Below are positions 11,878 through 30,362 of a stretch of 43,253 nt of DNA, piece by piece. The first letter of the stretch is position 1. Each line of letters opens with the position of its first letter. The notes beneath the pieces are model-generated. The model did not search any database. It had not been told where the DNA came from and saw only the letters and a program-made list of their open reading frames with translations. The translations under genes and the position numbers were made by a program. This DNA comes from Planctomycetaceae bacterium (GTDB lineage: Bacteria; Planctomycetota; Planctomycetia; Planctomycetales; Planctomycetaceae), in contig JANSXP010000061.1 in assembly GCA_024742875.1 (NCBI GenBank), positions 1 through 43,253 of the forward strand, given 5' to 3'.

Positions 11878-11896
11878 GTAGACAGGCCGATTGCGA

Positions 11897-13540
11897 TTAT
11901 CCGGCGGGCGCCATCTGTGCCTGTCGGTCTCTGCCGGTCACGGAAGCAAAGACGGACTCAAACGAATTGGCCCGCACCATGGATGATGTGGTTCGGCCAA
12001 ACGGGACGCTGACATTCAGCCCGGACTGCTCCACGATTTCACAGCCCAGGGTTTCCAGTTGCTGCAGGTTGGCGGCGAATCGCTGGTGGTAAGTGCGATC
12101 GTTCATGTCATCCAGCAGCCGCTGGTTGGACTCCCGCACCAGGGGAATCTGTGAGATGTCCACGTTCCCCTGCACGGGCACGCCGTCAGTCGCCGCATGC
12201 CACTGCCGAAAGAACGCCTGCATAAAGTGATTCACTTTGCCCAGCTGAGACAGTCGGCTCAGATTCCGCAGATACATGGTCTGCTGACACATGCGGTCCT
12301 GCATGAAGATGAAGCCCGTAATGGACCAGTAGACCATGTAGTCCCAGAGAATTTTGACCGGCATCACGGTGGGATTGCCGAACATCCGGTACTGATCCTG
12401 ATAGGCCGTCTTGGTGCCGTAATAAAAGCGTTTGAAGATGCGATCGTACGAAAACGCGCGGATGCGAAACCCCCTGCCGGTCAGATCACGGCGGATCAAA
12501 TCCGTCAGAAACGTATTGGAAAACGCGATGAAATCGCTGCCCGGCGAATAGAACGGGTCGTGGAAGAATCCGGCTTCGCCCGTGATGCCCCAGCGGTGCC
12601 GGGAAAACACCTGCCTGCATTCGGTGGCGTAGTGCTTGATCGCCCGGAAATCCTGCACGTTGTCGAGGTTGGCTTTGACCTGCTCGGCGCACTGAGGCTC
12701 GTGTTTTTCCAGCCAGCGAACGGCCTTCTCCATGGAATTGAAGTCTGACAGCGAGTGGAATTCTTCGGCCGCCACGATGCCCATGCTGGTCGAGCCGGAG
12801 GCCAGTGGAATCATCCACACCCAGTAGCCCTTACCCATCAGGTGGTTGGTGCTGTACCAGCGGGCCGTTTTGTCCGCGTGTCCCTGCTGCCAGTCGCCGT
12901 CCTGCGACCATTCGTCAATCTTGATGTGCCGGCTGAATCGAAACCACGCCGCGTTGGCGATGTGCGACGATGGCATCTGCATGTTGAGCTGACGTTTCAA
13001 AAACGCGCGGCGGCCACTGGCATCCACCACCCAGCGGGAATTGACCGTCTGCCGTTCCCCGTCGGCCTCAAACTGCACGCGGTGCGTGCCGCGTTTTCGG
13101 ATGTCAATCTCCTGCACCGTGGCCTGATCGCGGAATGTGATCCCGCGCTCCAGGCAGGTGTCGGCCAGAAAGTTTTCAAACCGACCACGGTCCAGTTGAT
13201 AGCTGGGACACGGCGCGTAGCGTTTCCCGCCCAGTTCGAGGCGATCTTCAATACGACTGTTGTCTCCGGAAGGAAAGAAAAATCGCAGCCCCAGTTTGGG
13301 CAGCTGGTCATCCAGAATGTGCTGCCGGAACCCAAGCACTTTGCCAAAATAGTGAGCCGCGACTTCCACCGTGGACTCGCCCACTTTGAAGGCCGCTTCG
13401 GGCACAGGATGCTGGCGTTTTTCCAGCACGGTGATGGACGCCTGCGGCAGCTGCTGTCGGCACTGCAGCGCCAGTGACAGGCCCGCCAGGCCGCCACCAA
13501 GAATCGTCAGATCAGATTGCGCATTCATAGTTCGTCTCAT
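11897..13540 (-). CDS. Flavin-dependent halogenase-like oxidoreductase A
   Basis: A 547-aa FAD enzyme of the flavin-dependent halogenase family (often auto-named tryptophan 7-halogenase). It shows the FAD fold GGGLAG (15-20), the KVGEST segment (52-57), VVDASGR (171-177), the halogenase signature as WVWMIP (240-245), and [17 protein letters not shown]. Lys82 in QLPKLGLRF aligns with the catalytic lysine position of characterised halogenases (ATFKxGIxF). The WxWxIP motif plus Lys favours halogenation over hydroxylation, but the Gly that normally precedes the motif is Tyr, and many relatives are uncharacterised. It is the last gene of the minus-strand block, 30 bases after its paralogue. Likely substrate: the PKS-bound or released aryl chain (inference). 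A Met at residue 5 is an alternative start. Confidence 0.8.
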
Positions 13541-13570: not shown

Positions 13571-15193
13571 TCAGATTTCCAGAGCCTCAAACACGCCGCA
13601 CAGCCGATTGGTCGACGCCGACTGACTGGGAATGTCGCTTTCCACGGTCGGCTGCAGTCGGCGGACGCGTTCGGTGATTTCAAACATCAGATCCCGAATC
13701 AGTTCCACATTGGCAGCGAACCGCTTTTTCAGCGTCTCGTCGTCCACTTTGTCACGCAGTTCGGCATTCAGCCGCGTCATCAGCTCAATTTCGCTTTGAT
13801 CCACAAACGCGGCACCCGCATCCACGTGCGGATCCGCCTCGTACCAGCTGCGGAAGAACGTCTGCATTTTGAGATTCATATCGCGAATCTCTTCGATGCC
13901 GCGCGACAGGGACTGAATGAAGCCGACCTCCGTCAGTTTGCCGTTGAAGTACAGTAACGCCGGGAACCCCCAGTAGACTGCATAATCCCACACGAACTTC
14001 AACGCCATGATGCGCGGGTTGCCGAACAGCGGGTACTGATCCCGGTAAGTGATGAGGTTGTTCTGAAAGAGCGTCAAAAAGACGCTTTGCAGTGTAGGAG
14101 CCAGATGCTCGATGGGGCGTCCTGCCAGATCCTCTTCAATCAGCCGGCCCACCATCGTGTTGCCAATGGCAATGAAGTCGCTGCCGGGCGAATAGAAGGG
14201 ATCCAGAAACGCGGCCGCTTCTCCCACCAGCCCCCAGCGATCAGCAGAGAACACCTGTCGGGAACCGCGGGACATCTTTTTGATCGCCAGAAAGTCCTGC
14301 ATCTTATCCACATTGGGCTGGAGGCATTCCCAGCACTCCGGCTCATGAATTTCCAGCCAGGCCATCGCCTTTTCAAACGTGTTGATGGTGGGCAGCGGGT
14401 GGATTCGGGGGTCGGCCACGATGCCCACACTCGTTGACCCGGTCGCCAGCGGAATCAGCCACACCCAGTAGCCTTCGCCCATCAGATGGTTGGTACTCAG
14501 CCAGCGGCGGGGCACTTTACCGGTCAGCTGCTGCCAGTCCTGATCATCACACCAGCCGTCGATCTGCAGATTGGCGTCAATCCGAAACCAAACGGCATTA
14601 ATGTCGTGTCCCAGATCCTCCTCCAGCTTCAACTTGCGTTTGATGAAACTGGCCCGACCGCTGGCATCAACAATCCAGCGACTTTCAATGGTCCGCGGCA
14701 CACCATCGCGTTCGAAGGTAATCTGGTGATTCGTATCTTTGGTTCCACCTTCGGAGGAATCGATCACGACCTGCCGGACGCGGGCCTGATCGATGATTTC
14801 TGCACCGAGGTCTGTGTTGGTCAACTGCAGATAGTTTTCCAGACGGCCCCGATCGACCTGATAGCTGGGTGCCGAAAAGAACTCGCTGCCGCCCACCTCG
14901 GTGCCTTCGGCCAGTGTCTGCCAGGCATCCTTAAAAAAGAACCGCAGACCGAATTTGGGCAGCTGATCATCGGTCAGATGCTTTTTCAGCTGCAGTTCTT
15001 CGCCAAAATAGTGCGCCCCAATCTCCACCGTGGATTCACCCACTTTATGAGTCGTTTCCGAAACAGGAAAGGCACGTTTTTCCACAACGGCCACACGCAT
15101 GTCAGGCTGCTTTTGCAGCAACTGTCGGGCGAGCGTCAGGCCCGCCAAACCGCCACCAAGAATTGCCACATCATATTTGCTGTCGGTGATCAT
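13571..15193 (-). CDS. Flavin-dependent halogenase-like oxidoreductase B
   Basis: A 540-aa paralogue of the next gene, alignable end to end with similar motifs in the same order: [12 protein letters not shown] (11-22), [15 protein letters not shown] (49-63), QLPKFGLRF with the presumed catalytic Lys80, WIVDASGRASFIKR (173-186), WVWLIP (243-248), and [19 protein letters not shown]. The pair clearly arose by duplication and has diverged substantially, so the two may act on different positions or at different steps. It lies 95 bases downstream of the PKS stop in the same direction, placing it in the same transcription unit. Reduced flavin would have to come from a flavin reductase encoded elsewhere, since none is in this window. 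Halogenase, or a related flavin oxidase or dehydrogenase, cannot be separated by sequence reading. Confidence 0.8.
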   Translation of the reverse strand: MITDSKYDVAILGGGLAGLTLARQLLQKQPDMRVAVVEKRAFPVSETTHKVGESTVEIGAHYFGEELQLKKHLTDDQLPKFGLRFFFKDAWQTLAEGTEVGGSEFFSAPSYQVDRGRLENYLQLTNTDLGAEIIDQARVRQVVIDSSEGGTKDTNHQITFERDGVPRTIESRWIVDASGRASFIKRKLKLEEDLGHDINAVWFRIDANLQIDGWCDDQDWQQLTGKVPRRWLSTNHLMGEGYWVWLIPLATGSTSVGIVADPRIHPLPTINTFEKAMAWLEIHEPECWECLQPNVDKMQDFLAIKKMSRGSRQVFSADRWGLVGEAAAFLDPFYSPGSDFIAIGNTMVGRLIEEDLAGRPIEHLAPTLQSVFLTLFQNNLITYRDQYPLFGNPRIMALKFVWDYAVYWGFPALLYFNGKLTEVGFIQSLSRGIEEIRDMNLKMQTFFRSWYEADPHVDAGAAFVDQSEIELMTRLNAELRDKVDDETLKKRFAANVELIRDLMFEITERVRRLQPTVESDIPSQSASTNRLCGVFEALEI

Positions 15194-15270
15194 TGCCGGG
15201 GGTGTTGCCTCTTAGGGTGATCTGTCCTGTTGCCAGGTCGTGAGTGTTTGACGGGATGACTTGCGATGCC

Positions 15271-15290
15271 AGCGATTGTCAGCGATTGTC
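15271..15290. repeat. Perfect 10-bp tandem duplication at the end of the PKS gene
   Basis: AGCGATTGTC occurs twice in direct succession (15271-15280 and 15281-15290), overlapping the PKS stop codon at 15289-15291. It looks like a small slippage duplication and has no evident role. Confidence 0.6.
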
Positions 15291-17778
15291 AGGAGCTGAC
15301 AGATTCTACCGACTCCACGAAACGGTCAACTTCGGTGATCCAGTACCGTTTTCTCTCAAAAGGATACAGTGGCAACGCCACCTTGCGGCGTGCCCACGGC
15401 CGGTGCAGGGCCTGAAAATCGATCGTCAGACCGTATTCATATAATCGACCAAGTGTCTTTACGGTGGTAGACGAAGCCGCTTCGCTGTCCGCCGCACAAT
15501 GCAAATGGATGAACGATTCGTGCGAAATCTGACCGGCAACGGTCAGCCCCACGGGCGAATTCCGGCAGAACTCTATCAACACCGTGATATCCTGCGCGAT
15601 GAGACGTTCCACCAGCGACTGCTCTGCCACCGCGGCACTCAGATGATCTTTCCAGTAGGCGCCCGCCAGTGAACGATGGACGGGCACCAGATCTCCGCTG
15701 ACAGAACACAGCAGTGGCATGTTCGGGGGGTAGTAGTTGAACGAATCAGCGAACGTCTCAAAGTCCGCAATGACGGCCGCCTGCTCTGCGTCCGACGCCC
15801 CGTCAGCATGGGCGAGCTGGCACGTCTGCCGACGAATCACCAGCAGCAGGGCATCACGAAAACAAACACCGCCCGCGACGGCAGACGCGACAAACTGTCC
15901 CACACCAACGCCTGCCACTACGTCCGGCTCAATGCCCCAGCCACGATACAGTTGCGCCAAACCTGCCTGCAGGACGTAAGCGGCCACCTCATCCGCAGGA
16001 CTGTCAGCGGCCTCCGACATCAGCCACTGCCGCAGCGACGCCCCCTTCCAGTCGTCGGCTTCTCCCAAACGTTCGTCCAGGTCATCAATAATGTCGCGGA
16101 ACGCGGGCTCGGCGGCGAACAGATCTCGGCCAAACTCTACCCCGGGATGTGTGTCGCCAAACAGCCAGGCCACTTTGCCAGAGGCGTTGCTCCCAGTCGC
16201 GACGGACTCAGAGGTCACCGTGTCGTCTTCCAGCCAGGCAGTCAACCGGTCGGCCGCCTGACTGCCAGTGGTTGCGCAGATCGCCAGCCGATGTTCAAAG
16301 TGACGTCGCCCGGCACTAGCCGTGAAGCAAACGTCTGACAGGTCATCTGCGCCCGAAAGGCGATCACGATAGCCGGCGGCCAGCTGACGCAGTGCCGCAC
16401 CGCTGCGGGCGCTGAGCGTAAGCAGCCGCCACACATCGGAGGACGACTGGTCGCTGTCAGTGCTCAATGGCATGACGTTCTCCGCTGCAGGCGTTGGAAC
16501 GGGAGGTGAACCGAGAATCACGTGTGCGTTGGTGCCCACCAGCCCCAGGGCGGTCACGCCGGCGAGGCGTTCCTCGGCCTCGGGCCAGGGCGTCTGCTCG
16601 GTCACCATCTTCACGGGGAGGCGTCGCCACGGGATATGCGGACTGGGTTCCTCGAAGTGCGCCTGTGGTGGCAGCACTCCGCGGTGGATGGACAGCACCG
16701 TCTTGATCAGGCCCGAGATCCCTCCCGCTGCTTCCAGGTGACTGATATTGGCTTTGACAGTGCCAACCAGCAGAGGATTGTCGCGTTTGCGGCCCTTGCC
16801 GTACACGGCCGCTGCGGCCCCCAGTTCCATGGGGTCACCAAACTCGGTTCCCGTGCCATGAGCTTCCAGATACTGCACCTGCGACGGCGCCACCTGGGCG
16901 TCCCTGAGTGCTTCCGTAATCACTCGCGATTGAGACTTTCCACTGGGCGAGGTGATACCACTGCTGGTTCCGTTGTGAACCACGGCACCACCTTTGACTA
17001 CGGCCAGCACGCGATCTCCAGCGGCCACCGCATCACTGAGGCGCTTGAGCACCACAACCCCACAGCCTTCGCCGCGGCCAAAGCCGTCCGCCTGCGCTGA
17101 GAACGACTTACAGCGACCATCGGGCGACAGCAGTCCGGCTTTGGACATCAGCAGCGAGTTCACGGGCGCTAGAATGGCGTTCACACCACCAGCGAGCGCC
17201 ATATTGCAGTGCCCGTCCTGCAGACTTCGCATCGCCTGATGCAGGGCCACCAGAGAACTGCTGCTGGCCGTATCAACGGCGATGGACGGCCCTTCAAATC
17301 CGAACACATAACTGATACGTCCCACGCCCGCGCTGTGCGACAGCCCGGCCCCCTGAAACGCCTCCACCACATGCCGATCATCCAGTGTGGGCAGGAAGGC
17401 ATAGTCCTGCCCCATGATCCCCATGAACACACCCACGTTGCTGTCGGTCAGTGGCGCGGTGGCAAGTCCTGCGTCTTCCAGCGCCCGATAGCTGTTCTCC
17501 AGCAGCATGCGGTGCTGGGGATCAATCCAGCAGGCTTCCTGATCACTGATGTTGAAAAAGGAGGCATCAAAATCTGCGATGTCCTCCAGAAAACCGCCTT
17601 CCCGGGTGTACATGAAGCCGGGCTGTCGGTCCTCGCGATAGAACCGGTCAATGTCCCAGCGGTCCTCGGGAATCTGCCGCACAGAGTCAACACCATTCAT
17701 CAGGTTGTCCCAGAACTCGTCCGCGTTCTGAGCGCCGGGGAACCGACAGCTCAGCCCGATGATCGCGATCGGCTCCTT
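15289..17778 (-). other. Degenerate terminal KS-AT half of the PKS
   Basis: This part of the PKS gene (residues 1831-2659) encodes a full-length KS fold whose catalytic Cys is Ser2002 (DTASSSS; codon AGC at 17263-17265), while both catalytic His (2137 and 2177) remain. The NIGHLE motif reads NISHLE. The AT that follows has GVGVG at 2453-2457 in place of GHSxG, and is about 203 residues against 277 for the first AT. The missing part is the small subdomain that would hold the HAFHS segment. The post-AT linker (ALPLYPFERKRYW) is intact and the protein ends 15 residues later. The frame is open throughout, so this is a maintained protein region and not a decayed remnant with stops. Confidence 0.85.
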
Positions 17779-20700
17779 GGGGCGCCGGCCGTCCTCCTCT
17801 GGCTGGTTCGGCGTGACCACCGCCGCCGCAGCTTCGGACTCGCCATCATCCGTAATGAGACTGAGCACATGATCGGAAATGGCATCGATGGTCGGATGGT
17901 CGAACAGCATCGTGGGACCAACGGCAAACTGATCGCCCAGCATCTGCTGCAGCTCGGTGCCAAACTCGACCGCCATCAGCGAATCAAGTCCCATCTCAAT
18001 CAGCGGACGATCCAGTTCCGGGGGTTCAGGCGTCGAGAGAATCCGCTGCAGCGAGGCCTGGACGGTATCAACGAGCAGTTGTCGTCGGGCGGCGCCGCGA
18101 AGTTTCCGCAGCCGCGCAACCAGTTCGGAATCACCCGCCTGCGACTTTTGCCGCGCGGGGGCGAGTTCTTCGAGCAGTGTGGAGGCGTCTCCGCCAGGTC
18201 CACTGCGCATTCGCCGCCAGTCGACATCCATGACGGTCGCCTGCGTTTGCTGCAGCGAAAGCATCAGCCCTATCACTTCGTGGGCTTCATCAGCCTCCAG
18301 CGGCGCAATGCCCTGCAGCGCCATCCGTTTCAGAATTCGCTCATCATCCGCCATGCCAGCCGACCATGGCCCCCAGTTAATGCTGGTGGCCGGCAGCCCC
18401 GCGTGTCGTCGCCGCCACGCCAGACCATCCAGGAACGCATTCCCGGTGGCGTAGTTGCTTTGCCCCGGCGAACCCAGCACCGAAGCCGCCGAGGAATACA
18501 GCACGAAAAAGTCCAGTGCCTGATCACGCGTCAGCTCATCCAGCAGTGAGGCGCCAACAATCTTGGGAGCCAGAACGTTCTCGAACCGCTCCCACGTCTG
18601 CGTGCCAATCAGCGCGTCATCCAGGACGCCGGCTGCGTGTATCACGCCTTTGAGAGGCTTCCACTGGCTGCCAAATCCGGCAATCAAAGACTGCACATTC
18701 TCCCGGCTGCCCAGATCGGCCGCATGTACGACCACATCACAGCCCGCGTGTCGGATCACATTCAGAAACGCACGCGTGTCTTCGTCCGGTTCGCGGCGAG
18801 ACACCAGCACCACCTGCCCGGCTCCGTGGTCGGCCAGCCATTTGGCAGCCTGCCGCCCCAGCATCCCCAGGCCTCCGGTGATGAGATAGCTGCCATCCAC
18901 GTGGACATTCGGCACAGACGACCGGCCGGTTGTGCCACCAACACGTCGCAGGCGGGGAACCAGAAAACCGCCCTCACGAATCAACAGCTGATTCTCACGC
19001 GTTTCGGTCATCAGCACATCACACACACAGTGAATGTCGTCGCCCTGGGCATCTGCAGGCAGATCGATAAGACGGCAGCGAAACTCGGGCTGTTCGGCCC
19101 CTACGACCCGGCCAAGCCCCCAGTACTTTGTCTGGTGCGGCTGACACACCTCAATCGCAGTCGTGGCGATGGCCGACTGCGTCACCAACTGCAGGCCGCA
19201 CCGGAGTGATCGCTGTCCGCGTTCCAGCAGCACCTGAGAGAGCGCAATCAGCCCGCCGCAGTTCTGTTCGGCCGCACCAAAGATAGAATGCTCCGTGTGA
19301 CTGTCACCATCGAACAGCCAGACAACTCCGTCCGGCTGCCACGCCGCCGTGGTCGACGTTTCGTCTGTGGCGTCCGGCGGACCGGGCGTATCCTGAGCCA
19401 TGGACGCATCCTGCTGGGCAAACAGCTGCTGCCACTGCGCCGACTGGCGGACATCCAGCACGCCCTGCCCGTCTGTCACGGACAGCTGGGCGTCGTTCTG
19501 AGCTGTCAGACACAGAACTTCGTGACCGGCCTCCTGCAGCACCCGCAGTAAACCGGCGGCGTGCGGCGAAGTGGCCGCTCCGTCCACCAGCAGCCAGCGG
19601 CGGGGCTGCGGATCAGCGGCCGGCAGGCGGAATTGTCTCCACTGAGTTTCGTGCAGCAGTCGTTCTGCGCCAACTCCGCTCATCTGTCGCAGCACGTCGC
19701 GACTGACGTGCTGCACCGTGAGCTCCTCAATGGTCAGCAGCACGCGATTGTTGTCATCAAACAGTGTCAGGTCAGCTGTGCGCGTGCGACCTTCCGGCTG
19801 TGTCCACACGGCATGGCACCAGACTTCGCCATCCACCGGCTGGTAAAGGCAGACACGCTTCATGCCGACGGGCAGAAACAGATTTCCATCGTCTTCCTGC
19901 AGCAGGCCCACAGCCAGCGCATGCAGGGCCCCGTCCAGGACTGGTGGCGGCACCTGAAAACCACGCACATCACCGGCTGTTGACAGCCGCGCCAAGATAC
20001 GGTTCTCCGCCGTTGCCAGTGACTGCACAGTCTGAAAGGCGGGACCATAGCTGAGCCCGATGTCCTGCAGCTTTGCGTAGAACTCGCCCACGTCCACCGC
20101 CTGGCGGGTGGACTCCTGCAGGGCGGCCGCGTCGATGATTTCCGGTTCCGGGGCGTTCTCTCCCAGAGCCCCGGTGACGTGCCGCTGCCATTCGCCCGTT
20201 TCTGTGCCACTGGACCAGGTCTCGAGGGTGGTGCGATCGCCTTCAGTGGGCTTAAGCACGGTCTGCAGAGCCGTTCTGCCGGCAGGGCGCAGCGGCTGCT
20301 CAAAGACAAGATCTTCGACAACCGCGCCCGCGGAGGCGGCCAATGCGATCTCCACCCAGGCGGCGCCCGGCATCACGACATTGCCCATCACTTCATGATC
20401 GGGCAGCCACGGTGGGCTGTCAGGCTCCACAAAGGATTCAAAACGTTTTTCCTGTCCAGCCCCGGCCAGTCGCACTTCACTGCCGAGCAGCGGATGTGCT
20501 GTGTGGAACGCGGCATGCGCAGCGCGGGGTTTGTCCGGCCCCCAAAACCGACGCCTCTGAAAGGGATAGGTGGGCAGCACCACATGCCGCCCAGCAGGAT
20601 TTACCGATGCGAAATCGGGCTGGTGGCCGCAGGCATACAGCCGGCCGATCGCCTGCAGAAAGTGCGACTGATCCTGCCCGTCTTTTTGCAGGCAGCTGAT

Positions 20701-23268
20701 CAGCCGCCCGACGTCGTGTTGCCAGTCGGCCGCCGCCATGCGCGTCAGGACACCGCTCGGCCCCAGTTCCAGCAGGACATCACAGCCCTGCTGCTGCACA
20801 GTCTGCACGCTATCAGAAAACCGAACAGCCGCTCGGATGTGCTGCGCCCAGTAGGAGCCGTCCGGTATGGAATCCGCCGGCAGCACCTGTCCGCTCATAT
20901 TACAAATCAGCGGAATCTTTGCTGGGCGGAACTTCATGCTGCTGGCGAAAGCGGCGAACGGCTCCAGCACAGGATCCATCAGCTGAGAATGAAACGCGTG
21001 TGAAGTCGTCAGCGGCACACATCGCCGACCATCGGCTGTGAGCGTCTGTGCCACAGCTTCCACCCGTTCGGCCACTCCACTGATCACCGCGTGCGTGCCA
21101 TTGGAGGCGGCCAGCGAAACATCAGGCAGACCATCAATGGCGGTGGACACAACATCAACGGGTGCAAAGACGGCCACCATTTTTCCGCCCGATGGGAGTT
21201 CGCCAATCACGCGGCCACGTTCGGCGATCAGTTTCAGACCGTCCTCCCACGACATCACTCCCGCCACGCAGGCGGCCGCGTACTGTCCCACACTGTGTCC
21301 CAGCACAACGTCCGGCTGCAGGCCACAGTGCTGCAGCAGCTTCGCCAGTCCCATCTGAATGGCAAACAGGGCCGGCTGCGTCCAGCTGGTGTGATTCACG
21401 CGCTCCGGATGATCAAACAGCACCGACGTCAGAGACTCGTCGCGCAGCGATGACAGTTGTGCGTCGCACCAGTCGACCGCTTCGCGAAACACGGGCTGCG
21501 TGTCATAAAGCTCGCGGGCCATCCCCACATACTGCGCCCCCTGGCCGGTAAACTGCCAGGCGGTTCTGGGAGCCCGTCGGCCGTGACCGGTGGCCACTGA
21601 CGTCGACGCTCCGCCGCGAGCGATGCCGGTCAGCCCCGCGATGGCGTCCTCGATGCTGCCGGCAACGACGGCACCACGGTGGTCAAAATGGGTGCGACGA
21701 CATCCCAGCGACCAGGCGACGTCGGACAGTGAAGCCGCAGCGGTGTGCCGCAGCCAGTGTTCAATCTGCTCCGCCTGCTGCTGCAGCGCTTCTTCCGTGC
21801 GACCACTGACCGTCAGCAGATACGATTGTTCTGGCGGCTGCTGCGTCCTCCCATCCTGCGTGGCGGCGGCCTGCGGACTGACCGTCGCAGTGACTTCGGC
21901 TGCCCCCACGACCACATGGGCATTGGTGCCACTCATGCCGAACGCGCTGACGCCCGCCACTCGATCAGTGCCCGACCAGCCGACTGGCTCGGTGAGTACC
22001 TTAACGGGAATGGCCTGCCAGTCGATGTGGGGATTGGGAGTTTCGAAGTTGAGCTGCCCGGGAATCTGATTGTGCTGCAGCGACAGCAGCACTTTGATCA
22101 GTCCCGCCATGCCGGCCGCCGCTTCCAGATGGCCGATGTTGGTCTTCACCGATCCGACCAGCAGCGGCGACTCGCTGGTACGGTTCCCCGTGAGCGCAGC
22201 GGCGGCTGCCTGCATTTCAATCGGATCGCCCAGTTCTGTGCCGGTCCCGTGCGCTTCCAGGTAAGCCACTTCGTCGGGCGTTACGCCGGCCCGCTCCAGA
22301 GCCTGGCGAATCACTTTTTCCTGAGCCTTCGGATTGGGGGCCGTCAATCCGCTGCTGAACCCGTTGTGCCCCACGGCAGAGCCACGAATCACGCCCAGAA
22401 CGGGATCCCCATCACGCTGTGCGTCGGCCAGTCGCCGAATTGCCACCACGCCGCAACCTTCCCCGCGAAGGTAACCATCGGCAGCCGCATCAAAAGCGCG
22501 GGAATGGCCCTTGGGAGAAAGCGCCTTCAGTTTGCAGGTCAGAATGTTGGTGGTGGGCGAACAAATGACATTCACTCCCCCCACCAGCGCACGATCACAG
22601 TCGCGGCGCTGCAGACTCTGAATCGCCAGATGCAGTGCCACCAGCGACGAGGAGCAGGCGGTGTCCACCGCCAGACTCGGGCCCTGCAGACCCAGATAGT
22701 AAGCCAGCCGACCGCACAGAAAGCTGCCGGCCGCGCCCGTGGCAATATACGGGTTCAAATTGAGGAACGAATCACTCGCCTCGTTCTGGTAGTCATTGTG
22801 CATCCAGCCGACAAACACGCCCGTCTGCTCGCCAATGTCGGCCGGTACCCAGCCGGCTCTTTCCAGTGCCTCCCAGCCAACTTCCATGAGCAGCCGCTGC
22901 TGCGGATCGACCCACGTGGCTTCGCGCGGAGAGATTCCGAAGAACTCCGGATCCATTTGATCGACCTGATCGAGAAACACGCCGCGTCGCGCGTACATCC
23001 GACCAGGGATCTCCGGGTCCTCGTCAAAGAAGGCGTCCAGATCCCAGCGATCGCCAGGAACTTCTCCCGTCTCGTCCGACTGTTCCATCAGACTCTGCCA
23101 AAAGCGTTCGGGAGAACTGGCGTGTCGGGGAAAGCGACATGCCATGGACACAATGGCGACCGGCTCATAGTCGCCCGTTTCCTGCGCCTGAGCCAGCTGC
23201 TGCTTGAGTTCTCGAATCTTCAGCAGCGCCTGCTTGTTGGCTGAAAGGCTCGAATCAGATTCCGCCAT
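15289..23268 (-). CDS. Type I polyketide synthase: KS-AT-DH-KR-ACP followed by an inactive-looking KS-AT
   Basis: A 2659-aa synthase. Residues 1-35 form a coiled-coil docking start (LLKIRELKQQLAQAQ). Module 1 is complete: KS 35-455 (Cys205, His340, His380); AT about 570-850 (GHSVG with Ser659, HAFH 757-760, the malonyl-CoA signature); DH about 925-1190 (HxxxGxxxxP from His958, Asp1112); a structural non-catalytic half-domain about 1200-1440; KR about 1458-1640 (TGGLGMLG, LDD at 1549-1551 suggesting B-type stereochemistry, Tyr1606, Asn1610); ACP about 1730-1805 (Ser1763). There is no ER and no methyltransferase. A second KS-AT pair (1831-2659) follows but lacks key residues, and there is no second ACP and no thioesterase. 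One use of module 1 adds a trans-alkene unit; iterative use would give a polyene. It lies between the AMP-ligase and the flavoenzymes in one direction, so it should extend the acid loaded by the ligase. Confidence 0.95.
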   Translation of the reverse strand: MAESDSSLSANKQALLKIRELKQQLAQAQETGDYEPVAIVSMACRFPRHASSPERFWQSLMEQSDETGEVPGDRWDLDAFFDEDPEIPGRMYARRGVFLDQVDQMDPEFFGISPREATWVDPQQRLLMEVGWEALERAGWVPADIGEQTGVFVGWMHNDYQNEASDSFLNLNPYIATGAAGSFLCGRLAYYLGLQGPSLAVDTACSSSLVALHLAIQSLQRRDCDRALVGGVNVICSPTTNILTCKLKALSPKGHSRAFDAAADGYLRGEGCGVVAIRRLADAQRDGDPVLGVIRGSAVGHNGFSSGLTAPNPKAQEKVIRQALERAGVTPDEVAYLEAHGTGTELGDPIEMQAAAAALTGNRTSESPLLVGSVKTNIGHLEAAAGMAGLIKVLLSLQHNQIPGQLNFETPNPHIDWQAIPVKVLTEPVGWSGTDRVAGVSAFGMSGTNAHVVVGAAEVTATVSPQAAATQDGRTQQPPEQSYLLTVSGRTEEALQQQAEQIEHWLRHTAAASLSDVAWSLGCRRTHFDHRGAVVAGSIEDAIAGLTGIARGGASTSVATGHGRRAPRTAWQFTGQGAQYVGMARELYDTQPVFREAVDWCDAQLSSLRDESLTSVLFDHPERVNHTSWTQPALFAIQMGLAKLLQHCGLQPDVVLGHSVGQYAAACVAGVMSWEDGLKLIAERGRVIGELPSGGKMVAVFAPVDVVSTAIDGLPDVSLAASNGTHAVISGVAERVEAVAQTLTADGRRCVPLTTSHAFHSQLMDPVLEPFAAFASSMKFRPAKIPLICNMSGQVLPADSIPDGSYWAQHIRAAVRFSDSVQTVQQQGCDVLLELGPSGVLTRMAAADWQHDVGRLISCLQKDGQDQSHFLQAIGRLYACGHQPDFASVNPAGRHVVLPTYPFQRRRFWGPDKPRAAHAAFHTAHPLLGSEVRLAGAGQEKRFESFVEPDSPPWLPDHEVMGNVVMPGAAWVEIALAASAGAVVEDLVFEQPLRPAGRTALQTVLKPTEGDRTTLETWSSGTETGEWQRHVTGALGENAPEPEIIDAAALQESTRQAVDVGEFYAKLQDIGLSYGPAFQTVQSLATAENRILARLSTAGDVRGFQVPPPVLDGALHALAVGLLQEDDGNLFLPVGMKRVCLYQPVDGEVWCHAVWTQPEGRTRTADLTLFDDNNRVLLTIEELTVQHVSRDVLRQMSGVGAERLLHETQWRQFRLPAADPQPRRWLLVDGAATSPHAAGLLRVLQEAGHEVLCLTAQNDAQLSVTDGQGVLDVRQSAQWQQLFAQQDASMAQDTPGPPDATDETSTTAAWQPDGVVWLFDGDSHTEHSIFGAAEQNCGGLIALSQVLLERGQRSLRCGLQLVTQSAIATTAIEVCQPHQTKYWGLGRVVGAEQPEFRCRLIDLPADAQGDDIHCVCDVLMTETRENQLLIREGGFLVPRLRRVGGTTGRSSVPNVHVDGSYLITGGLGMLGRQAAKWLADHGAGQVVLVSRREPDEDTRAFLNVIRHAGCDVVVHAADLGSRENVQSLIAGFGSQWKPLKGVIHAAGVLDDALIGTQTWERFENVLAPKIVGASLLDELTRDQALDFFVLYSSAASVLGSPGQSNYATGNAFLDGLAWRRRHAGLPATSINWGPWSAGMADDERILKRMALQGIAPLEADEAHEVIGLMLSLQQTQATVMDVDWRRMRSGPGGDASTLLEELAPARQKSQAGDSELVARLRKLRGAARRQLLVDTVQASLQRILSTPEPPELDRPLIEMGLDSLMAVEFGTELQQMLGDQFAVGPTMLFDHPTIDAISDHVLSLITDDGESEAAAAVVTPNQPEEDGRRPKEPIAIIGLSCRFPGAQNADEFWDNLMNGVDSVRQIPEDRWDIDRFYREDRQPGFMYTREGGFLEDIADFDASFFNISDQEACWIDPQHRMLLENSYRALEDAGLATAPLTDSNVGVFMGIMGQDYAFLPTLDDRHVVEAFQGAGLSHSAGVGRISYVFGFEGPSIAVDTASSSSLVALHQAMRSLQDGHCNMALAGGVNAILAPVNSLLMSKAGLLSPDGRCKSFSAQADGFGRGEGCGVVVLKRLSDAVAAGDRVLAVVKGGAVVHNGTSSGITSPSGKSQSRVITEALRDAQVAPSQVQYLEAHGTGTEFGDPMELGAAAAVYGKGRKRDNPLLVGTVKANISHLEAAGGISGLIKTVLSIHRGVLPPQAHFEEPSPHIPWRRLPVKMVTEQTPWPEAEERLAGVTALGLVGTNAHVILGSPPVPTPAAENVMPLSTDSDQSSSDVWRLLTLSARSGAALRQLAAGYRDRLSGADDLSDVCFTASAGRRHFEHRLAICATTGSQAADRLTAWLEDDTVTSESVATGSNASGKVAWLFGDTHPGVEFGRDLFAAEPAFRDIIDDLDERLGEADDWKGASLRQWLMSEAADSPADEVAAYVLQAGLAQLYRGWGIEPDVVAGVGVGQFVASAVAGGVCFRDALLLVIRRQTCQLAHADGASDAEQAAVIADFETFADSFNYYPPNMPLLCSVSGDLVPVHRSLAGAYWKDHLSAAVAEQSLVERLIAQDITVLIEFCRNSPVGLTVAGQISHESFIHLHCAADSEAASSTTVKTLGRLYEYGLTIDFQALHRPWARRKVALPLYPFERKRYWITEVDRFVESVESVSS

Positions 23269-23383: not shown

Positions 23384-25375
23384 TCAGGAGTCACTCAGCT
23401 CTTTCATCAGTTCCGCCAGCGCTTCTTCCTCAGACAGTTCTGCCACCTGCCGCTGCAGTGTCTCAGTGTCTGCCACACGCCGGTCCCCGCTGGCGTTCTG
23501 CGGACCACCGGAGGAGCGATTTTCGGCTGCGGAGTCTTCCGGCAGAATGGTGGCCAGCAGATATTCGCCCAGATCACTGATGCGAGGCTGATCGAAAACA
23601 AGGGTGGCGGCCACCGTAACATCCGGCCCCACTTCCACCTGAATCTGATTACTGATTTCCACCAGCATCAGCGAGTCCAGACCCGCATCCAGCAGCCGCG
23701 TGTCAGGGTCCAGCAGCGATTCCGTGTCCGCCACGTGCTGCACGAGATGCTGTACGAAGTCGATGCACGCGGCCTGACGAGTGGCAGCGTGTGTCGCCAG
23801 CAGCGTTTTGCGAAGTGTGGGTTCCCGCAGCTGACTTTGAGCCGCCACATCGGCCTGCCCCTCGGACTCCAAACGGACGGCGTCCTCCAGTGAATACGTC
23901 CGCAGCTGTGTCTTGAGCACCTTGCCCGAAGGGTTTCGCGGCAGTTCCTCCAGTTTGACCACCACTCGCGGGACTTTGTAGTTGGCCAGGTTCTGCCGAG
24001 CGTACTGCTGAATGTCACGCAGGTCGTCCTCTGTCAGATCTGCCTGTTCCGGAACGACGAAGGCCACCACCTGCTCGCCAAACACAGCGTCCGGAATGCC
24101 CACCACGGCCACCTGCCCCACAGCCCGATGATCGCGCAACACGCGTTCCACTTCAGCCGGATAAACCTTGAGTCCGCCAACGGCGATCATATCTTTGACG
24201 CGATCCACGATAGAGAAGTAGCCGCGTTCGTCCTGTCGGCCAATATCACCGGAAAAAAACCAGCCATCGCGAATGGCCGCCTGGGTTTCTTCCGGCCTTC
24301 CCCAATAGCCAAGCATGACATTGGGGCCCCGCACGGCAATCTCTCCCAGCTCCCCCGCCGGGCAGTCCGCGCCCGTCTGCGTATCGACAATTTTCATTTC
24401 CACATTGTCGATGGGCACACCAATGGATCCGGGCACAAACGCATAACGGTGGTTGTAACTGGCAAACGGACTGGTCTCCGTCAGTCCGTAACCCTCATAG
24501 ATGGGCTGACCAAATTTTTCCTGCCAGCGTTCGCTCGTTTGAATGGGCAGCGGGGCGGCGGCGGAAAAGCAATACCGCACGCCCTGCAATTCGGCCGCTT
24601 CGCAGCTGTCAGCAAACAGCTGAAACATCATGGGTACGCCGTACAGCTGTGTCACACCATGGGCGGCGATCAGACGGCGGGCTTCGTTCAGATCGAACCG
24701 CCGCTGCAGTACCAGTGTTCCACCGACATTGAGCACGGAATTCAGCAGGGCATTTTGACCGAAGCAGTGAAACAGCGGCACAGACAGCAGAACACGATCG
24801 GTCGGCCGCATGTCGCAAAGGTGGTTAAACGCACACACATTGGAACGCACGTTACCGTGAGACAATGTGGCTCCTTTGGGAAACCCGGTGGTGCCCGACG
24901 TATACAGAATCAGGGCCGGGTCGTCGGGCGCAGCATCGTACCAGCCGTCAAACGCCTGACCGTCCAGGGAACGGCCGGCAACCTGCCTTCCGCAGTCAGA
25001 CGCGACGATGGTCTGCACGCGATCAGTCAGCTCCCCGGTAACCATCTGCTGTGTGGCCTGATCGCTCACAAGAACCCGGGCCCCACTGTCGTCAATGACA
25101 AACGCGACCTCTGTCGCTGCCGATCGTGTGCTCACGGAGACGGCAATGGCTCCCAGTCGCAGTGCGGCGTAATACCAGACGGGAAACGCGGGCACATTCG
25201 CCAGCATCAAAGCCACACGATCGCCGGGCCTGACTCCCGCCTCGTGCAGCACCTGGGCCGAACGGCGGGACAGCTCTTCCAGATGTCCATAGCTCCAGAC
25301 ATCCGACTCGAACTGCAGTGCTACGGCATCCGGCACGACACCGGCAGTGGTCGACAAGTGTTCGCAGATGTTCAT
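23384..25375 (-). CDS. AMP-dependent acid ligase fused to an acyl carrier protein
   Basis: A 663-aa loading protein. The ATG at 25375 is chosen over one at 25405 because AGGGAGAG (25381-25388) lies 5 bases upstream and family proteins start near MNICEHL. Residues about 1-500 are an acyl-adenylate ligase: YTSGTTGFPKG (158-168), YGLTET (296-301), SGDIGRQDERGYFSIVDRVKDMI and the catalytic Lys485 in NPSGKVLK. Residues about 535-610 are a carrier protein with the phosphopantetheine Ser568 in LLDAGLDSLM. The tail (last 30 residues, QVAELSEEEALAELMKEL) is an acidic helix resembling C-terminal docking elements. It probably activates an aryl or acyl acid with ATP and passes it to its own carrier domain for the PKS. 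It is 39 bases after the ammonia-lyase stop, which suggests cinnamate as substrate; a fatty acid cannot be excluded. Confidence 0.92.
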   Translation of the reverse strand: MNICEHLSTTAGVVPDAVALQFESDVWSYGHLEELSRRSAQVLHEAGVRPGDRVALMLANVPAFPVWYYAALRLGAIAVSVSTRSAATEVAFVIDDSGARVLVSDQATQQMVTGELTDRVQTIVASDCGRQVAGRSLDGQAFDGWYDAAPDDPALILYTSGTTGFPKGATLSHGNVRSNVCAFNHLCDMRPTDRVLLSVPLFHCFGQNALLNSVLNVGGTLVLQRRFDLNEARRLIAAHGVTQLYGVPMMFQLFADSCEAAELQGVRYCFSAAAPLPIQTSERWQEKFGQPIYEGYGLTETSPFASYNHRYAFVPGSIGVPIDNVEMKIVDTQTGADCPAGELGEIAVRGPNVMLGYWGRPEETQAAIRDGWFFSGDIGRQDERGYFSIVDRVKDMIAVGGLKVYPAEVERVLRDHRAVGQVAVVGIPDAVFGEQVVAFVVPEQADLTEDDLRDIQQYARQNLANYKVPRVVVKLEELPRNPSGKVLKTQLRTYSLEDAVRLESEGQADVAAQSQLREPTLRKTLLATHAATRQAACIDFVQHLVQHVADTESLLDPDTRLLDAGLDSLMLVEISNQIQVEVGPDVTVAATLVFDQPRISDLGEYLLATILPEDSAAENRSSGGPQNASGDRRVADTETLQRQVAELSEEEALAELMKELSDS

Positions 25376-25414
25376 TCGGGCTCTCCCTGTCACGGAACCG
25401 CTCATCCTGAGCGT

Positions 25415-27100
25415 TTAACGACGGTCCCCGGCACCGCCCCGGCCCGTTGTGCGGCCGACAAACTCGTCATCAAACGACTGCAGAACAGTCGCCACGGACC
25501 GCACCAGGGACTGGCCGTCCGACAAATCACCATGCAGTGCCTGTTGATACTCTTCCAGCCACTGGTCTGCATCATGTTTGACCAGCGGACGCTGTGGTCC
25601 GGTCGTCGATCCCACCAGCTGGCAGACGGCCTCGTACAGCGGCGTGGTGAGGGTGCCCAGCAGCGCCCGACCGTCGTAATGGCCGGCCACCGCGTGCGCC
25701 CGCAAATCCAGCGCCTGGACGGCAAACAGCAGCGAGACACTCAGATAATGACGGAATAGATCCACAGATCTCCAGCACAGGCTGGCGCTGCCCCAGCTCA
25801 GCCCATTGATGTTCTGATTGAACTGTTCGGCATGCGTCGGGAAGTGTTCCACCAGCGGATTTGCGGCCCACGTCAGCAGCGGCATAATGGAATTACCGGT
25901 GATCTGCAGCCCCTTGAGCCCCATGTTGTAGGCTGGCTCCGCACAGCCCTGCAAAGACGCGGGCAGACCGTTGTTGAATTCCGGCGCCACCAGCGTGGCG
26001 ATCTGTACGTCCAGATGTTTGGCCAGCAGACCGAGGTATCGCCGCAGGTCATCCATGGCCATGCCCACGTACTGCCCCAGAAAATTTCCACTTTGGTAAA
26101 ACTGACCGCCCTCAGCGTCAATCAGAGGATTGTCCGAGACAGAATTCATTTCCGTCTCAACAACGTCACGGACTCGCGCCACCCCTTCCACGATCGCACC
26201 CAGATACTGCGGCAGACACCGCAGGGAATACCGATCCTGAACGTGCGGAGAGGTGGACGGAGTGTGCGTTCGGCCTTCTCGCAGCAGACGTCGCAGCATG
26301 GCCGCACTCCACACCTGTCCAGGATGCGGTTTGTGACGATGCACGAATTCTTCAAACGGCTCTTCGTGCACCTGCAGCGCCTGCAGCATCATCGTCTGCA
26401 CGCCCAGCGCGACGGCGAGCAGGCGCCGCGTCTGCTCGCTGCAGTTGGCCGCTATGGCGGACGAGAACGACGTGCCGTTAACGATTGCCAGGCCTTCTTT
26501 GGGCTGCAGGGCGATTGGCTCCAGCCCGAGTCGCTCCAGGCACTCTGTGCCCGTCCACACCTGACCCCCGTGCTGCACCCGCACGAAACCGGTCTGCCCC
26601 GTCATGGCCCGCGCCACCACCGAGAGCGGCACCAGATCACCGCTGGCACCAATTGACCCCAGTTCCCGCACAATGGGCGTGGCGTCTTCGTTGAGAAACC
26701 GCACCAGCCGTTCCACAATTTCCGGTCGCACACCGCTGCAGCCTCTTGCCAAAACGTTGGCCCGCAGCAGCATGGCCGCCCGTACATGCTGCGGATCGAT
26801 GGGGGCTCCCGCTCCAGTCGCCAGAAATGACAGCAGATTATTCTGCGAAGCGGCCGCCTGTTCGCCGTCGACGGTCACCTGGGCCATGCCGCCGAATCCC
26901 GTCGTCACACCATAGATGCTGCGGTCCTGCGTGACCGCTTCCGCCACCAGATCGACGGAGGCCTGCAGTCGCTCGCGAACGTCGCCCTCAATGGTGACGC
27001 GAACCCGCGGCTTCCCGGCCGCGACACGGCAAACCTCAGAAAGCGTTAGAGGCTCACCACTGACAGACAGTGACATGGGTTCCAGCAGAGTTTTCGACAC
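25415..27100 (-). CDS. MIO-type aromatic amino acid ammonia-lyase, probably phenylalanine-specific
   Basis: A 561-aa member of the histidine/phenylalanine/tyrosine ammonia-lyase family. It has the catalytic Tyr63 (IYGVTTGFGG), the Ala152-Ser153-Gly154 triad that cyclises to the MIO cofactor (GSIGASGDLVPLS), and EFNNGLPAS/NQNINGL active-site segments. At the selectivity pair it has Phe92-Leu93 (NNLLSFLATG), where tyrosine lyases have His-Leu and histidine lyases typically Ser-His; Phe-Leu is the phenylalanine pattern. The expected reaction is L-Phe to trans-cinnamate and ammonia, though an aminomutase is possible. No histidine-degradation genes are nearby, while an acid ligase and a PKS follow directly, so this is a starter-supply enzyme. 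The start is GTG at 27100; an ATG at 27076 is an alternative. Confidence 0.9.
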   Translation of the reverse strand: MSKTLLEPMSLSVSGEPLTLSEVCRVAAGKPRVRVTIEGDVRERLQASVDLVAEAVTQDRSIYGVTTGFGGMAQVTVDGEQAAASQNNLLSFLATGAGAPIDPQHVRAAMLLRANVLARGCSGVRPEIVERLVRFLNEDATPIVRELGSIGASGDLVPLSVVARAMTGQTGFVRVQHGGQVWTGTECLERLGLEPIALQPKEGLAIVNGTSFSSAIAANCSEQTRRLLAVALGVQTMMLQALQVHEEPFEEFVHRHKPHPGQVWSAAMLRRLLREGRTHTPSTSPHVQDRYSLRCLPQYLGAIVEGVARVRDVVETEMNSVSDNPLIDAEGGQFYQSGNFLGQYVGMAMDDLRRYLGLLAKHLDVQIATLVAPEFNNGLPASLQGCAEPAYNMGLKGLQITGNSIMPLLTWAANPLVEHFPTHAEQFNQNINGLSWGSASLCWRSVDLFRHYLSVSLLFAVQALDLRAHAVAGHYDGRALLGTLTTPLYEAVCQLVGSTTGPQRPLVKHDADQWLEEYQQALHGDLSDGQSLVRSVATVLQSFDDEFVGRTTGRGGAGDRR

Positions 27101-27230: not shown

Positions 27231-30200
27231 TCAAAACGGGCTTCCGGATGGTGCCTGACCAACACCGAGCGGCTTCTGTGAAGAACCAAACATCAGCGCA
27301 TGCACGGCCGGCACAAACAGCAAAGCGAGCAGCGTAGCGCCTCCCACGCCACCAGCGATGGTGACGGCCAGTGGGGGCCAGAAGCGTCCCCCGGAAAGCA
27401 CGAGTGGCAAAAATCCGACGATGGTTGTGAGTGTCGTCGCCAGCACATGTCGCGTCGCCGCCAGCACCACGCGTGTTTCGGGCTCCCGGCGTTCTGGCGG
27501 CTGTTTTCGATTGGCCCGCAGCGCGGCCAGCACAACGATGGAGTCATTGATGGCGACGCCCACCAGGCCCATGGTGCCGACGATCGCCATGAAGCCAAAG
27601 GGGAATCGACAAGCGGTCAGGGCCAGCGGCCCCAGGCCAGTCGCCAGCCCTCCCACGCTGGCCACGATGGCGGCGCAGCGAAACGACTGAAATGAGGCGA
27701 CCAGCGTCAACAGCATGATTGAAAACAAGACCACAGCATTGGCAATCAGCTGGTTGACTGCCTGAGTCCGTTGCTCCTTTTCACCGCCCAGCTTCAGTTC
27801 GTATCCCTGCGGCAGGGTGAAATCAGACGCCGCCAGCCGCCGCTGAAAATCGTCCAGCACCACGGATGGCAGAACCCCGGCAACAGCGTAAGCTTTCACT
27901 TCGCTCGCCCGTCGGCCGTTGATTCGCAACATCGCTCCCGCCCGAGATTCCAGTTCTGCGGCTGTCGCGGTGCCCAGCGTGGCAGCGTTCAGTCGGACGG
28001 CGGAAGTGTCCGGCACGGGCCCACTGGCGGCCACCGTCCGTCGCTGCTGCGGCAAAGGCATGGCCGTCAGTCGCCGGCTTTTCAAAGGACCATCCAGTTG
28101 CAGGCGGACCCGCACGGGAAGTTCTTCGCCCGCCACAAAGCGGCGGCCCGCCTGTGCCCCTTCGAGCATCGTATAGATCAGTCCCGCTGTGCGACGCGTA
28201 TTGAGTCCGGCCGCCGTAATGACGTCCTCATCCGGCGTCAGCCGCACTCCGGTCACCACATCGCTCAGATCGCTGCGAGTGTGAATGACGTAATCCGTCT
28301 CCTGCAGAATGCTGCGGATCTGCCGGCCCAGAATCTGCAGCGTCTGTTGCTCAGGGCCCAGCAGCCGCACTTCGACAGGCGCATCAAATGGAGGCCCCTG
28401 CTCCAGCAGCCGGACCAGCGCCCGTCCCTGCGGGAGGGCCTGATCAATTTTCAACTGCAGGCGTCGAACCAGCGAGACCAGATCGGCCGTACTGCTCAGA
28501 TCCACAAATCCCTGAGCATAAAACGGGGTGCCCCGGCGACGCGGCACCACGTTGTAGTAAAAGGTCGGCGCACTGCCGCCCACAAACCAATGCTGACCTG
28601 CGACAACCGGCTCAGTCGACACGACGGACCGGACAATCTCAACCGCCTGTTCGGTCCTGGCAATGGACTCACGAGAGGCCAGCTCAATTTCAATCTGCAG
28701 CTGAGGGCGATCCGATGAGGGAAAGAACTGCTCTGGCAGCTGACGAGCCACCACAAAACCGACGGCTGGCAGCACGATGCCCGCCAATACGCCGACCATC
28801 GGAAATCGCAGCACCAGCCGCAGCCCCCACTCAAACAACCGACTCAGCGGCCGAACGACAAGACCACGATCCAGCCAGCCGTTTCGGGTGCCGGCCGGCA
28901 GCAGGGCGGCCAGCGCGGGAATAACGGTCATGGCCAGAAGAAAAGACGAGGCCACAGCCAGAATCACGCTCACGGCGATGGTCCCCACAAACTCTCCGGC
29001 GGGACCTGGCAGCATGGCGATCGGGAGAAAGGCGAGAACTGTGGTCAGCGTCGAACCGAACAGCGGCATCGCCAGCTGTTGCAGCGACAAAGAGATCGCA
29101 GACAACGGTGACGGTTCAGTACGGCGACGGTGCCGCACCTCATCCACAATGACGATCGCATTGTCAATCAGCAGCCCCAGTGCCACGATCAGACCGGTCA
29201 CTGACATCTGATGAAGAGGAATCTGCAGCAACCTCATCGCTGCCAGTACCATCAGCGCCGACAGCGGCAGCGCGGCGGTGACAATCAGCATGCTCCGCCA
29301 GCCCATCATCAGCAGCACCACGGCCATCACCGCCAGCGTCCCATAGCCAAGGTTCTGCAGCAGAGTCGACATTCGCTCAGAGATGTAGTCAGACTGAGAA
29401 AACAGAATCTCCACGGCCGTGCGACCACGCACGCGTTCGCGGAAGCTCTGCAGTTGCTCTTGCAGCCGGCCGTCCCAGTCGCTCACGCGTTCGTCGTCCT
29501 GCACCATGACGCCCAGCACAATGCCGGCGCCATTTCGTCCGGGAGCCACTGTCGCCGGAGGCGACACCACATGTCGTGAGACGGTCGCAATATCCGCGAG
29601 CCGCACCTGATCTCCAGCCGGCCCCCAGGTTATGCGTGCCTGCGCAAGGCGATCTTCCACGGCACCTGCGGATCCCACCTGCAGCGCCACATCGCCCGTG
29701 CCTTCACGAATACGCCCAGCCGGAAAATTGTCCTGCTGACCAATCAGCTGCTCGGCAATGGCGCCAGGCGGCAGCCCAAGTCGGGCCAGCTGCGCCAATG
29801 CGACATTCACCACAATTTCTTCACCCGGGTCCCCAAAAACGGACACGGATTCGGTCCCGGCAATCGACGTGATCAGGGACTTCAATGATCGCACGTCCGA
29901 TCGAACAGCGGAAAAGTCGTTCGATGACGCCGGCGAAAGCCGAATGATGGTCGCAAAGGCCTTGAGCGGAACCACGTCCAGCTGCGGCGGCTGGCTGCCG
30001 TCTGGCAGTTCACTCCGGATCTGCTCCAGACGATCTCGCACGGTCGCCCACACGGCATTCACATCGGTGATCTCATCTTCCAGCTCGATAACAACATTGG
30101 AAATGTCGGTCTGGCTGTTGGATCGCACCTGGCGAATGCCGGTCACGGACTGCAGCTGCTCCTCAATGGGAATCGTCACCAGCGATTCCACGCGCTGCGC

Positions 30201-30362
30201 GTTCGCTCCCGGAAACACGGTCCCCACAATCCCCACGCGCCGACCCAGTACCGGATCTTCCAGCCGCGGCAGCACCCAGAACGCCGAAAGCCCGGCGACC
30301 AGCACCACAATAATGGACAGCAGCAGGATGCGTGGGCGCTGCAGCAGGAAGCTGGCCATCAT
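27231..30362 (-). CDS. RND-family efflux pump permease
   Basis: A 1043-aa inner-membrane transporter of the AcrB/MexB-like superfamily. It has one N-terminal transmembrane helix (about 10-32), a periplasmic pore and docking region, the block of helices with GLLIDNAIVIVDEV in helix 4 (Asp400), a second periplasmic region, and a final block containing VGVAINDSIVVLAALR and the last helices. The usual Asp-Asp proton-relay pair of helix 4 is Asp400-Asn401 here, so proton coupling uses one aspartate, as in some divergent RND clades. It would trim or export a hydrophobic product by proton exchange with the adaptor encoded by the overlapping upstream gene. No TolC-type outer-membrane channel is in the window. 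It lies 130 bases ahead of the ammonia-lyase in the same direction, consistent with exporting the PKS product. Confidence 0.92.
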   Translation of the reverse strand: MMASFLLQRPRILLLSIIVVLVAGLSAFWVLPRLEDPVLGRRVGIVGTVFPGANAQRVESLVTIPIEEQLQSVTGIRQVRSNSQTDISNVVIELEDEITDVNAVWATVRDRLEQIRSELPDGSQPPQLDVVPLKAFATIIRLSPASSNDFSAVRSDVRSLKSLITSIAGTESVSVFGDPGEEIVVNVALAQLARLGLPPGAIAEQLIGQQDNFPAGRIREGTGDVALQVGSAGAVEDRLAQARITWGPAGDQVRLADIATVSRHVVSPPATVAPGRNGAGIVLGVMVQDDERVSDWDGRLQEQLQSFRERVRGRTAVEILFSQSDYISERMSTLLQNLGYGTLAVMAVVLLMMGWRSMLIVTAALPLSALMVLAAMRLLQIPLHQMSVTGLIVALGLLIDNAIVIVDEVRHRRRTEPSPLSAISLSLQQLAMPLFGSTLTTVLAFLPIAMLPGPAGEFVGTIAVSVILAVASSFLLAMTVIPALAALLPAGTRNGWLDRGLVVRPLSRLFEWGLRLVLRFPMVGVLAGIVLPAVGFVVARQLPEQFFPSSDRPQLQIEIELASRESIARTEQAVEIVRSVVSTEPVVAGQHWFVGGSAPTFYYNVVPRRRGTPFYAQGFVDLSSTADLVSLVRRLQLKIDQALPQGRALVRLLEQGPPFDAPVEVRLLGPEQQTLQILGRQIRSILQETDYVIHTRSDLSDVVTGVRLTPDEDVITAAGLNTRRTAGLIYTMLEGAQAGRRFVAGEELPVRVRLQLDGPLKSRRLTAMPLPQQRRTVAASGPVPDTSAVRLNAATLGTATAAELESRAGAMLRINGRRASEVKAYAVAGVLPSVVLDDFQRRLAASDFTLPQGYELKLGGEKEQRTQAVNQLIANAVVLFSIMLLTLVASFQSFRCAAIVASVGGLATGLGPLALTACRFPFGFMAIVGTMGLVGVAINDSIVVLAALRANRKQPPERREPETRVVLAATRHVLATTLTTIVGFLPLVLSGGRFWPPLAVTIAGGVGGATLLALLFVPAVHALMFGSSQKPLGVGQAPSGSPF

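Follow-up and report, generated by a model that had tools for sequence, protein, structure and literature searches.

The planctomycete DNA analysed here (referred to as the window, 43,253 nucleotides) encodes a type I PKS that ends in a KS-AT pair, KS2-AT2, whose ketosynthase has a serine in place of the condensing cysteine and whose AT is degenerate. KS2 has been kept with this serine in several planctomycete families and appears to be a working part of the enzyme. The best explanation, which the sequence comparisons described below lead us to put forward tentatively, is that KS2-AT2 is a built-in, serine-bearing half-module for chain release. The features of the PKS and of the genes around it are listed in Table 1.

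Table 1. The PKS, its domains and active-site residues, and the neighbouring genes (nucleotide positions in the window; aa, residue numbers in the PKS)
Feature	Position	Strand	Basis
Type I PKS, KS1-AT1-DH-KR-ACP-KS2-AT2	15289..23268	minus	Pfam; 2659 aa, single open frame
KS1, condensing KS	21904..23166	minus	Pfam; DTACSSS and both His
AT1	20599..21576	minus	Pfam; GHSVGQY and SHAFHS retained
DH domain	19639..20526	minus	Pfam
psiKR/KR region	18199..19638	minus	Pfam (KR, aa 1459-1636); psiKR label as usual for such modules
ACP, sole carrier in the PKS	17854..18096	minus	Pfam (aa 1735-1801); GLDSLM serine retained
KS2, Ser-bearing ketosynthase	16519..17775	minus	Pfam, alignment
Ser2002 codon AGC replacing the condensing Cys	17263..17265	minus	Coding-strand reading, DTASSSS
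His2137 retained (EAHGTGT)	16858..16860	minus	Alignment
Ser2176-His2177 (KANISH), Gly to Ser adjoining the retained second His	16738..16743	minus	Alignment
Leu2241, gate Phe to Leu	16546..16548	minus	Alignment
AT2, degenerate, without small subdomain	15292..16236	minus	Alignment
GVGVG replacing GHSxG, aa 2453-2457	15898..15912	minus	Alignment
FADox1, flavin halogenase-like	13571..15193	minus	GGGLAG and WVWLIP
FADox2, flavin halogenase-like	11897..13540	minus	GGGLAG and WVWMIP
AMP-dependent ligase carrying an ACP at its C-terminus, probably loads the starter	23384..25405	minus	Pfam, NCBIfam
Aromatic amino acid ammonia-lyase, PAL/HAL family	25415..27100	minus	ASG motif; Pfam, NCBIfam
RND exporter	27231..30362	minus	Pfam
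HlyD-type membrane fusion protein	30359..31447	minus	Domain search

Pfam recognized two KS, two AT, one DH, one KR and one ACP domain in the PKS. The nucleophile, the first His and the second His are spaced by 135 and 40 residues in KS1 and in KS2 alike, and the ACP ends about 30 residues N-terminal of KS2. No carrier domain was detected by Pfam C-terminal to KS2, and nothing follows AT2 in the protein. The first-pass annotation had claimed that KS2 carries Ser2002 for Cys and keeps both catalytic His, that AT2 has GVGVG and lacks the small subdomain, and that no ACP follows KS2-AT2 in an intact frame. All of this was borne out: the codon of residue 2002 is AGC and both His2137 and His2177 are present, AT2 differs from the GHSVG of AT1 and has a gap opposite the SHAFHS stretch of AT1, and the whole protein is read in one open frame.

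Orthologues were collected in several searches, those of the family, the phylum and the class scoring the best few candidates per genome. With KS2-AT2 as query, matches of more than 700 bits were obtained in 8 of 170 genomes of the family, and the order search, also covering 170 genomes, had an identical outcome. Four of 392 genomes were positive in the phylum sample and 8 of 397 in the class sample, two of the latter in two further families; the window's own genome is included in the family, phylum and class counts. A contig scan with short peptides, which detects close relatives only, yielded nine loci, five of them orthologues (L055 and L056 to L059). The distinct orthologous loci, the window included, number 14: ten are full-length, one (G123) consists of two pieces on two contigs, and three are cut at contig ends. 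The PKS with the serine-bearing KS2 is thus spread over at least three families, and two of the genomes bearing an orthologue, G069 and G070, are single-contig genomes. The orthologue from the same genus (G006) matched the KS2-AT2 query with 64% over residues 9-837. In all ten full-length members KS2-AT2 is terminal and carrier-less. The operon is absent from most genomes searched. Other long PKSs, among them those of G047 and G056, were rejected as orthologues; those examined have one KS each, with Cys.

The active site of KS2 is uniform among the orthologues. Serine, encoded by AGC or AGT, occupies the nucleophile position in all 14 loci, and so does His the first histidine position; all 13 sequences that extend far enough have the second His, a Lys at the position five residues N-terminal of it, the KANISH motif and the gate sequence ALGL containing Leu2241. 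Both Thr of HGTGT are retained in KS2, and KS1 has its Cys in all 12 orthologues whose contigs reach there. In a set of 54 KS domains from 34 loci and the window (57 KS matches less three, each of at most 300 aa), the 12 KS2 domains have Ser, and Cys together with the gate Phe is found in the other 42, 10 KS1 among them. For these counts, and for conservation, the correct ORF of locus L084 (3-2174) was used. A comparison was also made with 28 other KSs, leaving aside remote or long-branched ones (two of L053, one of L051, L052) as well as G595 and G660. Of 81 near-invariant positions KS2 retains 71 and KS1 73, and the changes fixed specifically in KS2 include Cys2002Ser, Gly2176Ser, Phe2241Leu, Asp2057Ser, Tyr2063Phe and Ile2147Met. 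Taken alone, Gly2176Ser would not mark a KS as non-condensing, since a KS with Ser in front of the second His (KSMISH) that keeps its Cys (DAACASS) was seen in L053 (3-4154, minus strand, KS from aa 343). Non-elongating KS0 domains of trans-AT PKSs keep the Cys and have lost the second His; KS2, having Ser and both His, does not belong to that type.

The partner domain has fared differently. In the alignment with AT1, AT2 has lost the catalytic Ser, the catalytic His and a subdomain, and Gly stands for the catalytic Ser in all 11 orthologues whose contigs reach it. Judged by sequence, loss of this shape is found more widely than in this operon, since the planctomycete PKSs L096 (aa 38-890 of ORF 1-9324, minus), L086 (ORF 3969-9512, minus) and L088 (ORF 1940-5101, minus) have an AT without small subdomain, with GVGVG, GHGVG or GHGLG. 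They share the degenerate AT with KS2-AT2, whereas their KS keeps Cys and their domain context is different. The KS of L088 reads ETQGTGT, with Gln for the first catalytic His, and retains Cys and the second His. In L044 (282-2468, minus) a Cys-bearing KS is soon followed by a post-AT linker (PTYPFQRERFW) and a stop, the AT being seemingly deleted and no ACP present; L098 (ORF 642-9533, minus) and L099 (ORF 7435-17709, plus) encode PKS modules with a short AT remnant between KS and DH, resembling trans-AT modules.

To compare selection on the domains, dN/dS was calculated by the Nei-Gojobori method for close pairs of orthologues, which are not independent of each other (G595 and G660 were left out). 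The following values were obtained for the pairs G069/G070, G079/G080, G070/G080 and L056/L057, in this order: 0.031, 0.039, 0.031 and 0.019 (KS2), 0.051, 0.050, 0.032 and 0.034 (KS1, the last from 95 codons), and 0.147, 0.089, 0.115 and 0.030 (AT1). For AT2, which three of the four pairs have, they were 0.242, 0.256 and 0.192. The remoter pair of the window and G006, for which dS is near saturation, gave 0.062 for KS2 and 0.098 for KS1. Among ten full sequences, 233 of 419 columns (56%) are invariant in KS2, 251 of 421 in KS1, 104 of 326 in AT1 and 23 of 281 in AT2. These values indicate that KS2 is under purifying selection as strong as that acting on the active KS1; AT2 is loosely constrained, with dN/dS yet below 1. 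Taking the dead partner AT2 as an inner control, which evolves several times faster, we conclude that KS2 is probably a working part and not a dead remnant. Intact orthologues, a sequencing error or recent decay, which the first-pass annotation had named as what would speak against it, were looked for: Ser was found in all 14 loci, Gly in AT2 in 11 of 11, and two of the genomes are on single contigs. For KS2, error and recent decay are ruled out by the constant Ser and the low dN/dS.

In a tree of 51 KSs (without two KSs of L053, one of L051, which are remote or long-branched, and without G595 and G660) the 10 KS1 and the 12 KS2 rows each formed one clade, both with support 100/100, and the two clades were sisters (98/92). 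Since KS1 and KS2 are sister clades, each of them single, the tree indicates that KS2 arose by an old duplication inside the PKS or its ancestor.

An AlphaFold2 model of KS2-AT2 built with 17 sequences had a pLDDT of 84.3 and a pTM of 0.84; it replaced an earlier one whose KS active site had been modelled too poorly (pLDDT 67.3). The segment ends for the models had been set from an alignment that included a wrong, autotransporter-like ORF of L084. Foldseek searches with the model returned the CurL KS-AT structure 4mz0 first (E 1.8e-83, TM 0.83), and the KSQ-AT of GfsA and CalA3 were at ranks 19 and 37 among the 50 matches listed. The predicted fold of KS2-AT2 is that of a KS-AT didomain.

The gene order lyase, ligase-ACP, PKS, FADox1, FADox2 is common to the window, G006, L056, G111, G079, G069, G070, G595 and G660, and the pieces of L059, G080 and G123 are consistent with it as far as their contigs extend (L057 and L058 were not part of this comparison). 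The exporter genes vary more: in 10 of the 11 operon genomes besides the window, HlyD- or RND-like genes are found nearby, either upstream or downstream. In G079 and G080 the HlyD matches are weak only, and no such gene was found in the stretch examined around the G111 operon. Inverse-autotransporter-like beta-helix proteins are encoded near the operon in the window (3563-7636) and in L084 (6634-9804). The best solved relatives of the lyase are histidine and phenylalanine ammonia-lyases; it scores below the NCBIfam cut-offs. FADox1 and FADox2 are likely to carry out halogenation, judging from the WxWxIP motif, present in 7 of 7 sequences of each, and from PDB relatives that include PltA, CmlS and 3e1t; the likeness to halogenases is distant. 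PltA and 3e1t, the latter presumably CndH, act on carrier-bound substrates. Completion of a split module by the next gene was ruled out for KS2-AT2, the next genes being those of the flavoproteins. No thioesterase family was recognized among the 21 proteins of the window (six matched no Pfam family) or among 19 flanking ORFs of L039, L056, L079, L080, L084, L102 and L103 (five matched no Pfam family).

These observations are compatible with the following scheme. The ammonia-lyase would make an aromatic starter, the ligase-ACP would load it, and module 1 would extend and reduce it. The ACP would then hand the finished chain to KS2 as to a next module, the position right behind the ACP being the site where the next KS would receive the chain. 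KS2 would not condense; its remodelled Ser-His-His(-Lys) site would cleave the thioester and pass the chain to water or another acceptor, either via O-acyl-Ser2002 or directly, and AT2 would be a structural stay only. We regard as rather doubtful the more specific proposal that a KS with its Cys permanently swapped for serine, internally duplicated, fused to the PKS terminus and kept across planctomycete families, is an acyl-O-serine transferase or hydrolase replacing a thioesterase. A thioesterase encoded elsewhere in the genome could also release the product.

Chain release was absent from the options considered in the first-pass annotation, and it has a close published precedent in CalA3 of the calcimycin PKS, which is described as a carrier-less terminal module with Ser replaced by Gly in the AT, in which only the KS works and either amidates or hydrolyses (PMC10006239). 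The same source reports that the C197A, H332A, H372A, K367A and L437A variants lost amidation and gave 3.4-4.9 times more hydrolysis product. By a hand count, L437 of CalA3 lies 65 residues after H372, and so does the gate Phe after the second His in CurL, Lsd14 and DEBS modules 1 and 3; the corresponding distance in the window PKS family is 63 to 65. It thus seems, from residue counting without an alignment to CalA3, that CalA3 and KS2 share the change of the gate Phe to Leu. As far as CalA3 (7wvz, 8i4y) is characterized in that report, it resembles KS2-AT2 in being terminal and without ACP, in having a KS that does not condense but retains the Lys as well as both His, and in its dead AT with Gly for Ser. 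In contrast to KS2, it keeps its Cys (Cys197); it is a separate protein with a docking domain, whereas KS2-AT2 is fused in cis; and it has an inactive DH and KR behind an AT with small subdomain, neither of which is found with AT2. Release by CalA3 is proven, that by KS2 putative.

The explanation ranked second, which we consider improbable, is that KS2-AT2 is a docking platform recruiting the two flavoproteins to halogenate or oxidise the ACP-bound chain. The X-domain of glycopeptide NRPSs would be its model: it is a non-condensing relative of condensation domains adjoining a carrier, as KS2 is non-condensing and beside a carrier, but it has the condensation-domain fold, its partners are P450s and a thioesterase is present. 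FADox1 and FADox2 are indeed encoded downstream of the PKS, both in the window and in all ten other genomes whose contigs extend to them, and their motif and structural relatives (see above) would suit such a task. However, the lyase, the ligase-ACP and the PKS are equally syntenic, so that the pairing with the flavoproteins is not specific, and these score alike on the models of CmlS, a halogenase, and QhpG, a monooxygenase, far below the cut-offs and with identical scores in one case. Nor would a platform need invariant Ser, His, His and Lys in its active site, and AT2, which does evolve like a scaffold, changes far faster.

Unlikely, in our judgement, is that KS2 is a KSQ-like decarboxylase of malonyl-ACP that would generate acetyl-ACP or strip the ACP of malonyl units. 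It retains both His as well as the Thr pair of HGTGT; for such residues in animal FAS and in KSQ, binding of the carboxylate and of the oxygen of the thioester has been described (PMC12267109). The residue replacing Cys is, however, Ser and not Gln in all 14 loci, and KS2 lacks both a functional AT and an ACP of its own. KSQ domains such as those of GfsA (7vee) and the pikromycin PKS (7uwr) have the KS-AT fold and both His in common with KS2 but carry Gln and are N-terminal loading domains with a working AT and ACP. In animal FAS, Witkowski in 1999 reportedly found that Cys161Ser did not raise decarboxylation, whereas Cys161Gln did. A fungal KS with Cys is reported not to have decarboxylated malonyl-ACP (PMC12199272). 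Priming decarboxylation by KS2 is unlikely because the neighbouring ligase-ACP probably supplies the starter; as this would arrive on the ligase's own ACP, KS2 would not be needed for acetyl-ACP. The KSQ-like role suggested in the first-pass annotation is therefore a poor fit.

Less probable still is a role of KS2 as a chain-length or partner subunit within the same polypeptide, pairing with KS1 like a chain-length factor (CLF). The sister relationship of KS1 and KS2, with one origin each, and the missing condensing Cys would agree with it, and fused KS-CLF proteins are described for PUFA synthases (PMC13311796). These have a second non-condensing KS in a multidomain synthase in common with the window PKS, but as described there KS and CLF form a didomain, whereas AT-DH-KR-ACP lies between KS1 and KS2, and KS2 is followed by an AT. 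Furthermore, KS2 keeps both catalytic His, and among the 21 NCBIfam families that KS2-AT2 hit at E 0.001 no CLF appears by name. The idea, also raised earlier, retains a small probability.

An inert dimer scaffold, or a relic of a former second module in slow decay, would account for an AT2 without catalytic Ser, His and a subdomain, but it is very unlikely given KS2 dN/dS of 0.02-0.04, 56% invariant columns and a Ser preserved through synonymous AGC/AGT change, a plain scaffold being expected to evolve like AT2, several times faster than KS2.

What stands of the earlier interpretation is the conserved, in-frame, carrier-less C-terminal KS-AT, whose KS2 is as tightly conserved as an active KS; the KSQ-like role and the plain scaffold are not supported. 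In searches of the open-licence literature on KSQ, Ser-bearing and inactive KSs we came across no description of a Ser-bearing KS at the end of a type I PKS, or of such an operon. A 2025 review of planctomycete metabolites lists a small number of compounds and still fewer gene clusters assigned to them, and its section 9 names no such cluster (PMC12078418). Cabrillospirals and other halogenated planctomycete compounds are covered there and in PMC11187115, but nothing found ties the operon to them.

KS domains without Cys are easily dismissed as dead. If KS2 releases the chain, it would represent a second, different route to KS-based release besides that of CalA3, and it offers a ready test of KS chemistry with Ser.
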